IMG/VR virus record: IMGVR_UViG_3300030333_000940
Location: 1-30,048 of that record
DNA: 30,048 bases
Direction: 5' to 3' (one strand)
DNA from: a virus
Below the pieces are notes generated by a model that saw only the letters and a list, made by a program, of their open reading frames with translations, was not told the DNA's origin and ran no database searches. Both the position numbers and the translations under genes were made by a program. Every line of letters begins with the position of its first letter. Within the stretch, counting starts at the first letter, position 1. This document shows positions 18,837 to 23,592 of the stretch, in pieces.

Positions 18837-19045
18837 TAAAAAGGCTGGTCCTTTTCTTTCTTAGCCTCAAAGCATTGCAGCCATAAATCACCATCCTTAT
18901 TAGGTAAGGGAAGAGCATTCAGCTTAATAGAGCGTTTACCGTCAGCCTTCTCCAACAAAATGCCTAAACTCATCCACCGGGTTTTCTCTTCACCGTTAAC
19001 AGTAAAATTACCTTGGGATTGCATTACTAAATATGTTTTATCCAT
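18836..19045 (-). CDS. Conserved small protein of phages, 69 aa
   Basis: This is the first gene of the packaging/virion operon. It has a pattern that I recognise from short conserved proteins in phages and mobile elements: YLVMQSQ...GEEKTRWMSLGILLE..DGKRSIKLNALPL...GDLWLQCFEA (the shared core is TRW..LG........I.L.ALP...G...L). It is probably one small beta domain. Function is unknown. It shares one base with the small terminase gene and is preceded by AAGGAG 7 bases before ATG 19045, a strong ribosome site. Confidence 0.68.
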   Translation of the reverse strand: MDKTYLVMQSQGNFTVNGEEKTRWMSLGILLEKADGKRSIKLNALPLPNKDGDLWLQCFEAKKEKDQPF

Positions 19046-19089
19046 TGAAAAACTCCTTAATGAAATTGTGGAAAATATTTTTGTGATAG

Positions 19090-19115
19090 CCCCCCTCTAT
19101 ATACGCATGGGGGGG
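19090..19115. other. C6/G7 hairpin upstream of the packaging operon
   Basis: In the 165-base gap between the initiator and the packaging operon, six C residues (19090-19095) and seven G residues (19109-19115) face each other around a 13-base loop. No T-run follows on either strand, so it is not a usual terminator. The position directly before the terminase genes makes a cos or pac element, or a leader structure, possible. This is inference only. Confidence 0.5.
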
Positions 19116-19188
19116 AGGGCATAAGGTGCGTTCTGCGATACAGAGATTTTTTATACCGTATTGTGCGTGTTCCGATGCCTCTAGGAAC

Positions 19189-19204
19189 ATCTGGACTTTG
19201 TACA
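19189..19204. repeat. CTTTGTACA element, copy 3
   Basis: ATCTGGACTTTGTACA lies 6 bases after the stop of the initiator gene, before the packaging operon. It differs by one base in 16 from the element at 13218-13233. A TATAAA block about 40 bases further along the minus strand could be a -10 region, but spacing to this element is too long for a simple sigma70 promoter. Confidence 0.65.
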
Positions 19205-19210
19205 CTCTAG

Positions 19211-20440
19211 TCATAGTGATGCCTTTTTATCTAGGAAATACTGTAATGTATTAGGTGGCTGCTTGTTGTCCTGTAAAGATTGGTTAACTACCTTAGTAGC
19301 TAGTTCTTTAAACTGCTCAGTAGTGTATCCTAACTGTAATAGCTTATCAGCTACTACCTTATCATTCTCACTAGCCTTCCAATCCGAACCATAAGTCTGT
19401 TTCACTACATTCATGTAACTGTTGATTATACCATTAATTAAGATTTCCTTATTATATATATTATTATATATACTATTATTGTTAAGTGTAACACTCACCG
19501 TTACATCTGAGGGTTTAGGTGTAACGTTCATTGTTACATCTTTAGTTTGGTTGTAACGGTCATCGTTACATCTAGTATCTGAGGTGTAACCGTCATCGTT
19601 ACACCCTTTATAATACTTATTATAGTATTCTAATGGTATGCTGTGGTCTTTTTCATTCGGTGGACTTCCCCATGAAGTTGACCAGACACTGCCCGGTTTC
19701 CAGTTCTGTAATCGTGCCTTCCATTGTGCCTCATCATTGGTAATAACTTCCTTCTTTACCGGCTCTTTAGGCTTGTCCTGTGGCTTGTTAAAGTATCCCA
19801 GCTTGTAAGGTGATGCCATCTTATTATCGAGTGCTGTCCATGTTTCCTCTGTCTGTATGCCTGTCATCCATAATGCTACGTCATTATATATACGGTCAAA
19901 GGAATAGTCTGGGTTGTCCTTGGCGTACTTCTTGGTGATAACGTAGGCTAACTTCTCCTGTTTCTCTGTTAACTCACGCTCGTAATGTTTAGGCTTATAC
20001 ACCTTCTTAAGTGTTTCTTTAACCTTGTCATCATCTATCTCGGTAGTATCTGCCATCTGTTTATCGTAGTCTATTGATGGGTCCAGAATAACTCTGTACA
20101 CGCAGCCTTGGTGACCTAATGGTCTACGGTTGTCTGCCTTGCGTATCTTCTCTATGTATCCCCAGTCACATAAGTCATTCATGTAGTTTGTTACATGGGT
20201 TCTGGCTGTGCCGACTATCTTGCCAATGGTTGAATGATTAATAAAAAATGTATTGCCTCGCCTTTCATTCTGATGACCACAACAGATAGCCAGTATTCTA
20301 AATGCCTGTTTAGCCTTATTAAACCTAACGTCACCGTAGGCTCTAGCTGGCATGATTATAACTTGTCCGGGGCATTGGTATTCTCCATGACCTTTAGGTG
20401 GATCTCTGAGTGGGTCCGGTGTTACTTTACTTATCTTCAC
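19211..20440 (-). CDS. Replication initiator, winged-helix, lambda O-like in layout, 409 aa
   Basis: The frame is open from 20560, but I place the start at GTG 20440, with AAGGAA 8 bases upstream, because the first 40 codons overlap the zinc-ribbon gene out of frame and look unnatural. Residues about 34-120 form a winged helix (AFRILAICCGHQN, then NHSTIGKIVGTARTHVTNYM, then NDLCDWGYIEKIRKAD). A lysine-rich link and a middle domain follow (ELTEKQEKLAYVITKKYAKD). Residues 279-318 are a poorly folded Asp/Thr/Val stretch that is encoded by the four iterons. The C-terminus is helical. A DNA-binding N-terminus, origin repeats inside the gene and an A/T-rich flank are the plan of phage lambda O. It would bind the iterons and recruit the host helicase. 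The role is inferred from this plan; the fold is a motif call. Confidence 0.72.
   Translation of the reverse strand: MKISKVTPDPLRDPPKGHGEYQCPGQVIIMPARAYGDVRFNKAKQAFRILAICCGHQNERRGNTFFINHSTIGKIVGTARTHVTNYMNDLCDWGYIEKIRKADNRRPLGHQGCVYRVILDPSIDYDKQMADTTEIDDDKVKETLKKVYKPKHYERELTEKQEKLAYVITKKYAKDNPDYSFDRIYNDVALWMTGIQTEETWTALDNKMASPYKLGYFNKPQDKPKEPVKKEVITNDEAQWKARLQNWKPGSVWSTSWGSPPNEKDHSIPLEYYNKYYKGCNDDGYTSDTRCNDDRYNQTKDVTMNVTPKPSDVTVSVTLNNNSIYNNIYNKEILINGIINSYMNVVKQTYGSDWKASENDKVVADKLLQLGYTTEQFKELATKVVNQSLQDNKQPPNTLQYFLDKKASL
19451..19607. other. Probable origin of replication: four iterons plus A/T-rich element
   Basis: Four 22-bp repeats start at 19488, 19521, 19553 and 19586. Their consensus is TGTAACnnTCAyyGTTACAyC, each an interrupted palindrome of TGTAAC and GTTACA with a 7-base centre. 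The spacing is 33, 32 and 33 bases, close to three helix turns. They are flanked at 19451-19480 by a run of 30 bases with only one C, a likely DNA unwinding element. All this lies inside the initiator gene. The repeats keep their DNA sequence while the reading frame shifts between copies 2 and 3, so they are kept as DNA sites. Confidence 0.8.
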
Positions 20441-20585: not shown

Positions 20586-20829
20586 TGGTTTTACTCGTAT
20601 GTGGAACGTATGCTTGATGCTTACTAAAGAAGTTTGACTTTAAGTTCATCTGCTTTAACTGCTTGTCCTGTGCCTCTTTATCGCCTCTATGGAATAAGTT
20701 AAGGTTGTCATTCTTTGCCATTACTTCCTCAAATGTAGTGAGGGATGATGATTGGTAAACATGAGTTTGTACTGGATAATATCGCCCATATTTATCGTAT
20801 TTATCTGCTATTGGATCATCCTCAAACAT
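20575..20829 (-). CDS. Hypothetical replication-region protein, 84 aa
   Basis: I do not recognise a family. The product is polar and Tyr/Asp/Gln/Lys-rich. It begins FEDDPIADKYDKYGRYYPVQ and has a lysine-rich second half (DKQLKQMNLKSNFFSKHQ). No membrane segment or metal site is seen. It starts in the stop region of the DnaA-like gene and overlaps the zinc-ribbon gene by 11 bases, so it belongs to the replication operon. It could be an accessory factor of the initiator, but nothing in the sequence proves this. Confidence 0.6.
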   Translation of the reverse strand: MFEDDPIADKYDKYGRYYPVQTHVYQSSSLTTFEEVMAKNDNLNLFHRGDKEAQDKQLKQMNLKSNFFSKHQAYVPHTSKTNDR

Positions 20830-21266
20830 TACGCTACGTCCAGTTCTTTCATAACATCATTATATATTCTACGCATTTTACGGCTGTCTTTAATCAGCTT
20901 TCTGCCTCGTTTGGCTCCCTGTACTATCGTTGTATGATCACGGTTGAGGGCATTGCCTATCTCTGTAAATGGCTGCCAAGTCTTTTCCCGGCAGACCAAA
21001 TACAACAAAGTTCTAAATGGCTGGGTGAGGTGGCTACGTCTTTTGTTTAACAATTCACTTGGTGGGCAGCCAGTTACTCTTGAGATGGCAAGGACCACTT
21101 CCCGGATTGATACTGCTTGGGTGAGATCTCTAAGATCTTCGTTCCTCGATATATAGCCTCGACTAGCTTTTTCTTTAGTCGGTAAACCGGGGTCTTGAAC
21201 CCTTTCACATCCTCGACTATCCTCTCTTTGTTTGTAAAGTATCGGAAATCTGCCATGTATTTGCAT
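20829..21266 (-). CDS. DnaA domain IV-like DNA-binding protein, up to 145 aa
   Basis: Residues about 53-140 match the C-terminal DNA-binding domain of DnaA. The helix SIREVVLAISRVTGCPPSEL is followed by KRRSHLTQPFRTLLYLV, then REKTW and the signature IGNALNRDHTTIVQG, with the basic end GRKLIKD. There is no ATPase domain, so this is a stand-alone domain, as in several phages. ATG 21266 has GGAG 7 bases upstream and would give 145 residues, but the first 45 or so residues are translated out of frame over the nuclease gene. No ATG, GTG or TTG that I can see lies nearer the domain. It may bind DnaA-box-like sites near the phage origin or compete with host DnaA. The domain is certain; the start is not. 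Confidence 0.78.
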   Translation of the reverse strand: MQIHGRFPILYKQREDSRGCERVQDPGLPTKEKASRGYISRNEDLRDLTQAVSIREVVLAISRVTGCPPSELLNKRRSHLTQPFRTLLYLVCREKTWQPFTEIGNALNRDHTTIVQGAKRGRKLIKDSRKMRRIYNDVMKELDVA

Positions 21267-21914: not shown

Positions 21915-22199
21915 ATGTCGCACAATATATATAAAGATAAACCAGAAGAGGGCAAAGTATATGCCCTTACTGGTGGTCCTAAAGCTGCTTGTATTGCTAA
22001 TGGCAACACATGGGCTGATAGTGAGGTCAAACCTAAATATGACCAGATAACTAAAGCTGAATGGGCTAAAAAGCCTAAAGCATATAAATCAATTATAGAC
22101 GGTCAGAAGTATATCTTAGCACTAGATCCTAAAACTGGTGGCACTATACTCAAGCCTGTTGATGTTGTTGACAACCAAGTTGTACAGAGGGTAGACTAA
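21915..22199 (+). CDS. Hypothetical early protein, 94 aa
   Basis: ATG 21915 is preceded by GGGAGAAAGTAAATA. The product is hydrophilic, rich in Lys, Ala, Asp and Pro (NIYKDKPEEGKVYALTGGPK, then CIANGNTWADSEVKPKYDQ), with no cysteine pairs or membrane segments. No family is recognised. The stop shares one base with the serine recombinase start (TAATG), so the two are translated together, and it might be a cofactor of the recombinase. Its first codons form another copy of the GTCGCACAATATATA repeat. Confidence 0.65.
   Translation: MSHNIYKDKPEEGKVYALTGGPKAACIANGNTWADSEVKPKYDQITKAEWAKKPKAYKSIIDGQKYILALDPKTGGTILKPVDVVDNQVVQRVD
21917..21931 (+). repeat. GTYGCACAATATATA repeat, copy 2
   Basis: GTCGCACAATATATA overlaps the start codon region of the 94-residue gene. 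It is 86 bases from copy 1. Confidence 0.5.
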
Positions 22200-22975
22200 T
22201 GGTGTACGCAAATAATGGTTATGAGAGTGGTATGCCTATATTTAGGAAGGATCACGGTACTCAGCACAGGGGCAAGTATGCTTGCCTTGTGCGAGTTAGT
22301 ACTGATAAACAGGATGTGGAAAACCAAATCTATAATATAAAACAATATCTCAATGGTGGTGACCATGAGGTGAAATGGTTTAGGGAAGAGGGAGTGTCTG
22401 GGGCATTACCTTTTTCTAAACGACCAGTTTTAAAAGAGGCTCTGGACTACTGTAGAAAAGAGAAAGCTACTTTGGTTGTTTACAGCCTGTCTAGGTTTTC
22501 AAGAAAGATGTGGGAAACAACACGGTTTTTTGAGGAAGAAGTCCACAAGAAAAGATTTAAGTTTATTGTAGTAGACAATCCAATGCTGGATCATAAGACA
22601 ATCGGTTTCCATGCTCAGATGAACTATATCGAGCGTGAGCATATAAGGGAGCGAACTTCTGCATCCTTTAACCGTATCAAAGCTGAGATAGCAGAGAAGG
22701 GCTACTACAAATCGAAATCCGGGAATATTATTAAGAAACTCGGTGTACATGACAAGCTGCAAGAGGCTGGTCAGAAGGGTGCTGATACTGTCAAGAAAAA
22801 TGCTGATGACTTTGCAAGGGATAATTTGCCTCTGATAAAATCATTGCTAGATGATGGAAACAGCTACCGGGATGTTGCTCGTATACTTACTAAGAGGGGC
22901 ATTCCATCATTTAAAGGGGGCGAATGGTATGCCTCAACTGTATCTAACTTAATTAAAAGGGGAACAAATAAATGA
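22199..22975 (+). CDS. Serine recombinase (resolvase/invertase type), 258 aa
   Basis: The N-terminal catalytic domain is clear. YACLVRVSTDKQDV carries the nucleophile Ser34, and a basic YSLSRFSRKMWE motif follows at about residues 95-106 (Arg99 and Arg102). A long dimer helix has the usual IEREHIRERTSASFNRIKAE pattern (around 145-165). A C-terminal helix-turn-helix follows (LLDDGNSYRDVARILTKRG, then IPSFKGGEWYASTVSNLIKR), the usual end of small serine recombinases. It lacks the large zinc-ribbon domain of serine integrases. It joins and recombines two DNA sites through a phosphoserine link. Possible jobs are resolution of dimers, inversion of a fibre module, or integration. It has an extra polar N-terminus of about 25 residues. 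Confidence 0.88.
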   Translation: MVYANNGYESGMPIFRKDHGTQHRGKYACLVRVSTDKQDVENQIYNIKQYLNGGDHEVKWFREEGVSGALPFSKRPVLKEALDYCRKEKATLVVYSLSRFSRKMWETTRFFEEEVHKKRFKFIVVDNPMLDHKTIGFHAQMNYIEREHIRERTSASFNRIKAEIAEKGYYKSKSGNIIKKLGVHDKLQEAGQKGADTVKKNADDFARDNLPLIKSLLDDGNSYRDVARILTKRGIPSFKGGEWYASTVSNLIKRGTNK

Positions 22976-23592
22976 ACAATACTAAAAACATAACTTTAAA
23001 TTCTCAAATTACATATTGGAAAGGACAAAAGAAAACGATAAGCAGAAATGGCTTGGGGATGAACCCAAGAGAAGAAAGTGGAACAACTGATGCTTTACAA
23101 TCTGGCACTTTCAGAAATCCAATTAATGCTCCACCAAAGCATTTAGAAGATACTTGCAATTATGCCCTCGATAATATTGTCCAACTTTACGCTCAACGCT
23201 ACCAGAAAGTTTGGCAGAACATACAAACCCGAAAAGCCACCAGAATACAAAGATATATGAACTCATCCCAAGTCAATTTTCATTTTGGTATGTGGTGCGT
23301 ACGAACTTACGAGACAAAAAAACCTATAACCGTTTCCCAGATTGTTGAAGAAATGTACATAGCCAGAACAACAGCTAGACGCTTAATATCAGAATGTCTT
23401 GCTGAAAAATGGATTGAACAAAAAGAATTACCCGATGACAGATGCACAGGCTACGTTGCTACAGAAGTCATGTACAGTGCATTTCGTGATTTTACAAAAT
23501 ACCAGTTATTAACACTGAATTGGCAAAAATTTGAGGATAACTATAAAGCCTATAAATATTGCTTAGATCGCACTGGTACAAATTTTGATTAA
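22972..23592 (+). CDS. Winged-helix DNA-binding protein, 206 aa
   Basis: Residues about 100-175 have a winged-helix/MarR-like layout (NFHFGMWCVRTYETKKPITV, then SQIVEEMYIARTTARRLISE, then CLAEKWIEQKEL and GYVATEVMYSAF). The recognition helix would be the ARTTARRLISECL segment. The first 60 residues are polar and unfolded in appearance. The gene overlaps the serine recombinase by 4 bases (ATGA) and is followed by an operator-like repeat, so it may regulate this operon or act as a recombination accessory factor. The fold is a motif call; target and role are not known. Confidence 0.62.
   Translation: MNNTKNITLNSQITYWKGQKKTISRNGLGMNPREESGTTDALQSGTFRNPINAPPKHLEDTCNYALDNIVQLYAQRYQKVWQNIQTRKATRIQRYMNSSQVNFHFGMWCVRTYETKKPITVSQIVEEMYIARTTARRLISECLAEKWIEQKELPDDRCTGYVATEVMYSAFRDFTKYQLLTLNWQKFEDNYKAYKYCLDRTGTNFD

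Follow-up and report, generated by a model that had tools for sequence, protein, structure and literature searches.

What is the function of a short array of dyad repeats lying within the coding sequence of a phage protein? The question is raised by a 30,048-nucleotide stretch of viral DNA (IMG/VR record IMGVR_UViG_3300030333_000940, positions 1 to 30,048; hereafter the window), in which a minus-strand gene (19211–20440) carries four such repeats next to an A/T-rich tract. The original prediction took this locus for a lambda-like replication origin inside the gene of its own winged-helix initiator. That interpretation gains support from the arrays of related genomes, from joint change of the winged helix and the repeats, and from the A/T-rich element: the gene very probably encodes a lambda-O-like replication initiator and contains the phage origin, with iteron binding and origin activity being what we infer.

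A pattern search with TGTAACnnTCAyyGTTACAyC located four plus-strand copies, starting at 19487, 19520, 19552 and 19585, with the predicted steps of 33, 32 and 33 bases; the repeat had been described as 22 bp long, and the pattern in fact spans 21 bases. In the direction of the gene, the 19-bp dyads are TGTAACCGTCATCGTTACA (19585–19603), TGTAACGGTCATCGTTACA (19552–19570), TGTAACGTTCATTGTTACA (19520–19538) and TGTAACACTCACCGTTACA (19487–19505), the last of which adjoins the A/T-rich element. The record contains exactly four instances of the core TGTAAC-N7-GTTACA, all of them within 19487–19603 (zero occurrences of the reversed-pattern control). Allowing up to three mismatches, the 19-mer gave nine matches on both strands versus 0.33 expected, a count that none of 100 shuffles reached, and Tandem Repeats Finder detected the array independently. 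No iteron-like site with up to two mismatches is found elsewhere in the window, which therefore appears to hold no second operator. As had also been claimed, the 32-base step shifts the reading frame, such that two copies are read in frame 0 (CNDDGY and CNDDRY) and two in frame 2 (VTMNVT and VTVSVT). Such frame shifts part DNA-level from protein-level selection unusually clearly, though those of the lambda array do so as well.

Searches of IMG/VR yielded four contigs with a complete initiator gene, giving a comparison set of five genes including that of the window. The encoded proteins are 86% (L005, record G001), 82% (L006, G002), 71% (L007, G003) and 70% (L008, G004) identical to the window protein, and partial genes occur in two further records (the N-terminal 87 residues in G005, and the C-terminal part in G006). 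Gene order is common to the window and its relatives; G001 and G004 are near-complete, with ends that match each other or neighbouring stretches of the window. Each of the four relatives whose gene is complete carries an array of four to six copies that crosses reading frames; none has the same protein without repeats, the case that was to count against an origin. Specifically, L006 carries four copies at steps of 33/32/33, and L005 carries five, mostly TGTAAC-N7-GTAACA, at steps of 24/33/32/33. A different motif, ATKACC-N5-GGTMAT (type 2, the window being type 1), is present in five copies in L007 (24/32/31/23) and six in L008 (24/24/32/31/23). Beyond this family, the array DNA found no match in phage and plasmid collections, an Rfam search returned nothing, and an IMG/VR scan with both iteron patterns recovered known family members only, with no satellite sharing the origin. 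Nor was an initiator match obtained by tblastn of the window or L008 protein against 50,697 phage records, where the L007 query gave only matches at E ≥ 0.2 (some annotated as replication initiation proteins), and no relative was found in 84,980 bacterial and archaeal species genomes.

The A/T-rich stretch adjoining the repeats is likewise borne out. It occupies 19450–19479, and in a nearest-neighbour stability scan no other 30 bp of the record are as unstable; in the four relatives whose gene is complete, the lowest-stability 30 bp falls on the same element (5/5 records). From the start of this element, a proposed DNA unwinding element, to the start of the last iteron is 26 bp in each of the five, in a common 19-bp register.

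The most likely start of the initiator gene is the GTG at 20440, giving a product of 409 residues, because a ribosome-binding-site-like AGGAAG lies upstream and MKISK or MKVSK occurs at the same place in the relatives. The protein comprises a winged helix-turn-helix (wHTH) domain, a conserved middle region, an iteron-coded linker and a C-terminal helical domain. Structural models resolve this layout as an N-terminal winged helix and a separate C-terminal domain, and are of moderate-to-low confidence outside these two. The wHTH domain, which had been anticipated within the first 120 or so residues, is modelled at residues 45–117 approximately (20090–20308, minus strand; predicted local distance difference test (pLDDT) about 60–84), with a predicted recognition helix at residues 80–92 (20165–20203, minus strand). 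The C-terminal domain (residues 319–409; 19214–19486, minus strand) is modelled as helical, with pLDDT of about 77–87 over residues 340–400, and is proposed to bind a partner for helicase recruitment.

Comparison of the two iteron types reveals that the DNA-reading part of this protein and the repeats change together. Within a type, the DNA of the iteron stretch is 97% (window and G002) or 95% (G003 and G004) identical, which exceeds the identity of these pairs in most other segments; between types, identity is 43–44%. At the level of sequence, high within-type identity maintained across frames is the pattern of DNA-level selection or recent exchange, consistent with the earlier proposal that selection acts on the DNA site and not the protein. 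Between types, protein identity is 86% over residues 1–63, 49% over residues 64–116 (HTH and wing), 84% over residues 117–277, 27% over the iteron-coded residues 278–318, and 80% over residues 319–409. The pair G002 and G003 illustrates this at the DNA level, with 99% identity just past the array (residues 319–345) and 88% in residues 117–200, dropping to 56–59% in the HTH and wing and 43% in the array. Strictly type-splitting columns make up 9/53 of the wHTH versus 5/315 elsewhere outside the iterons (Fisher p = 1.6e-5), and 7/1,708 across 11 other shared proteins (p about 1e-10), none of which splits by iteron type beyond a few columns. Positions 80, 82, 84 and 85 of the predicted recognition helix vary with type (R80, H82K, T84S and [ND]85G), and L007 and L008, only 55% identical in residues 64–116, nevertheless agree at most type-specific positions. 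Because HTH residues and iterons change together while the flanking protein is kept, the simplest reading of these alignments is that the wHTH reads the iterons of its own gene.

Family and fold searches link the protein to replication proteins without assigning it to the family of lambda O. The closest link comes from L007, which matches Pfam HTH_36 (38.6 bits, cut-off 25) and the PHROGs annotated as 'replication initiation protein' (3.7e-7), 'DnaD-like helicase loader' (1.4e-6) and 'replication initiation O-like' (7e-6), with its wHTH region matching phrog_186, a DnaD-like loader. When predicted structures were searched with the N-terminal domain, the matches were phage HTH proteins; one of these carries the annotation lambda GpO N-terminal, and some are replication initiators. 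Phage_rep_O (PF04492) had no match in G000, G001, G003 and G004, and was sub-threshold in L005 (E 0.12); as far as sequence informs, membership in this family is not shown. An hhalign comparison with lambda O also gave no match, with a shallow profile of low power, and a sequence search of the PDB produced nothing below E 0.2. The description 'lambda-like' therefore holds for the layout, and probably for the mechanism, and not for sequence membership in the lambda O family.

The original prediction further held that the phage depends on host polymerases. PolA was absent from eight records, and PolB and the DnaB helicase from four records including the two near-complete relatives; helicase loaders of the lambda P (PF06992) and IstB/DnaC (PF01695) types were also absent from four records including these two genomes. 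Positive controls were detected in these searches. Since no recognisable DNA polymerase, DnaB-type helicase or loader is present, the phage likely depends on host replication enzymes. In the mechanism that we propose, a dimer of the N-terminal winged-helix domain would bind each 19-bp dyad, and several dimers would assemble on the four to six iterons into an O-some-like complex, straining the DNA. The A/T-rich element, which lies 3′ of the iterons at a constant distance, would then open, the C-terminal domain would recruit the host replicative helicase either directly or via a host loader, and host polymerases would copy the genome. The C-terminal helical domain is the candidate for helicase recruitment; the single weak structural match of residues 336–409 to DnaD (Z 4.8) is only a lead, and Pfam shows no DnaD domain there.

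Several neighbouring genes are also of interest. A 58-residue open reading frame (19038–19214, minus strand) overlaps the stop of the initiator gene; its DNA is strongly conserved in the relatives and contains a hairpin-like stretch of a C-run and a G-run (about 19090–19120), and Rfam and PHROG searches with it gave no match. Near the initiator, a minus-strand gene at 20829–21266, kept in six records of the family, encodes a 145-residue protein consisting mainly of DnaA domain IV (Bac_DnaA_C, E 5e-10) with no AAA+ part; given that DnaA boxes are not enriched in the phage, this protein may act on host sites. The plus-strand gene at 22199–22975 encodes a serine recombinase with resolvase and Recombinase domains (82–97% identical in relatives) and adjoins genes for a YqaJ exonuclease and a RecT annealing protein, together a possible integration or recombination module. 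It is followed by a gene for a 206-residue MarR-like wHTH protein (22972–23592, plus strand), which is 35–43% identical among relatives, where other genes are mostly 70–97% identical, and was absent from the corresponding place in L027 (G003), which suggests a fast-evolving or exchanged regulator.

Some observations weigh against an origin at this locus. The window protein alone gives only marginal family matches, that to phrog_8102 ('replication initiation protein') being weak, and its whole-protein model is poor (mean pLDDT 49). GC skew reaches its minimum near 21 kb, where gene direction switches, and is thus confounded and not usable, and, as only five complete genes are available, the joint change of wHTH and iterons may be a single event. 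In addition, a promoter-like GTTACA-18-TATAAT on the coding strand overlaps the last iteron and the A/T-rich element. This last point belongs to the serious rival explanation, in which the repeats are operators of a wHTH transcription regulator, and the array with its TATAAT-rich tract forms an intragenic promoter, activated or repressed, that drives the downstream small genes and the terminase and structural operon. The nearest solved folds to the wHTH are indeed wHTH transcription regulators (such as RbkR, CRP and CodY; Z up to 6.7), and joint change of HTH and site would be expected of an operator as well, most sequence predictions being shared with an origin. However, the number of promoter-like matches in the region (12) is within the range expected by chance (9.5 ± 3), the –35-like part sits in a half-site that differs in type 2, and no operator-like site occurs elsewhere, for example at the gene's own promoter. 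Furthermore, the best PHROG matches of L007 are to replication-initiation and O-like proteins and not to regulators, and a four- to six-fold array next to the least stable duplex in the genome has the layout of an origin. We therefore disfavour a promoter or operator, and consider it improbable.

Two other readers of the repeats were considered, and each is less credible still. The array could be a packaging (pac) site for the small terminase, which is encoded about 0.65 kb downstream; the relatives look circularly permuted, and contig G006 (L032:1-50) retains only the final three bases of the last iteron at its start. This start could reflect either a real DNA end or an assembly break, since assembly can break contigs at repeats. 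The small terminase candidate is 93–98% identical across both iteron types, with type-splitting at 3/134 columns, and a protein so nearly identical in both cannot easily read two motifs, leaving a pac site very unlikely. The same comparison bears on the DnaA domain-IV and MarR-like proteins, which might read the repeats in partition or control, the DnaA domain-IV gene being adjacent and kept in six records. The DnaA domain-IV protein has no type-splitting column, and its helix NRDHTTIVQ is unchanged between a type-1 genome (the window) and a type-2 genome (G003); its usual boxes are not enriched. The MarR-like protein is missing from its position in G003 and is only 39–43% identical among type-1 genomes. 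We regard a role for either as scarcely probable.

With the wHTH as the most probable reader of an origin array, the joint change may have a further meaning. We suggest tentatively, and with some doubt, that within this close phage family the DNA-reading residues and all four to six iterons were replaced together across about 480 bp of a gene that is conserved elsewhere, such that the origin type would be a swappable identity (like an immunity type). Recombination would exchange it, and selection might favour it as barring co-infecting relatives or origin-stealing satellites from the initiator. Near-identical proteins with two natural specificities also make the residue-to-base code of a phage initiator directly testable. 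More broadly, the locus provides a likely origin and initiator for marine-type podovirus-like phages without recognised replication genes of their own. The nearest cultured phage by portal protein is OM43 phage MEP301 (54.9%), which encodes a resolvase and YqaJ but neither a DNA nor an RNA polymerase (PMC8024684). The present phages share the resolvase and YqaJ genes and the absence of a DNA polymerase, and differ in that the initiator homologue was not found in the MEP301 genome.

Among known systems, the closest parallel is lambda, whose O protein, as a dimer, binds 19-bp inverted repeats and opens an adjoining 40-bp A+T region (PMC5043065). In both, the initiator gene holds dyad iterons that separate its wHTH and C-terminal portions, shift in reading frame (at steps of 20, 24 and 23 in lambda) and have an A/T-rich tract on their 3′ side; in the lambda O gene, too, iteron 4 is followed by the 30 bp of lowest stability in the stretch examined. 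By analogy, the initiator and array probably work like lambda O and its origin. The differences are a distinct motif at steps of 31–33 or 23–24 bp, a longer protein (409 vs 299 residues) that has an additional conserved region in its middle, the lack of a P gene or P-like loader in four records, and no detectable match to O itself in a low-power comparison. Iteron plasmids (RK2, P1 and pSC101) similarly place an initiator-specific repeat array beside an A+T-rich region, whereas the iterons of the window are dyads and DnaA boxes are not enriched. Iteron number varies from four in lambda to six in Shiga toxin (Stx) phages, altering the length of the initiator linker (PMC7466680), and the present family parallels this with four, five or six copies and corresponding changes in linker length. 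Yet the iterons of Stx phages and lambda are near-identical, whereas two incompatible-looking motifs occur here within one family. The locus is thus ordinary in kind, lambda being the textbook case, and an unusually clean natural experiment in specificity.
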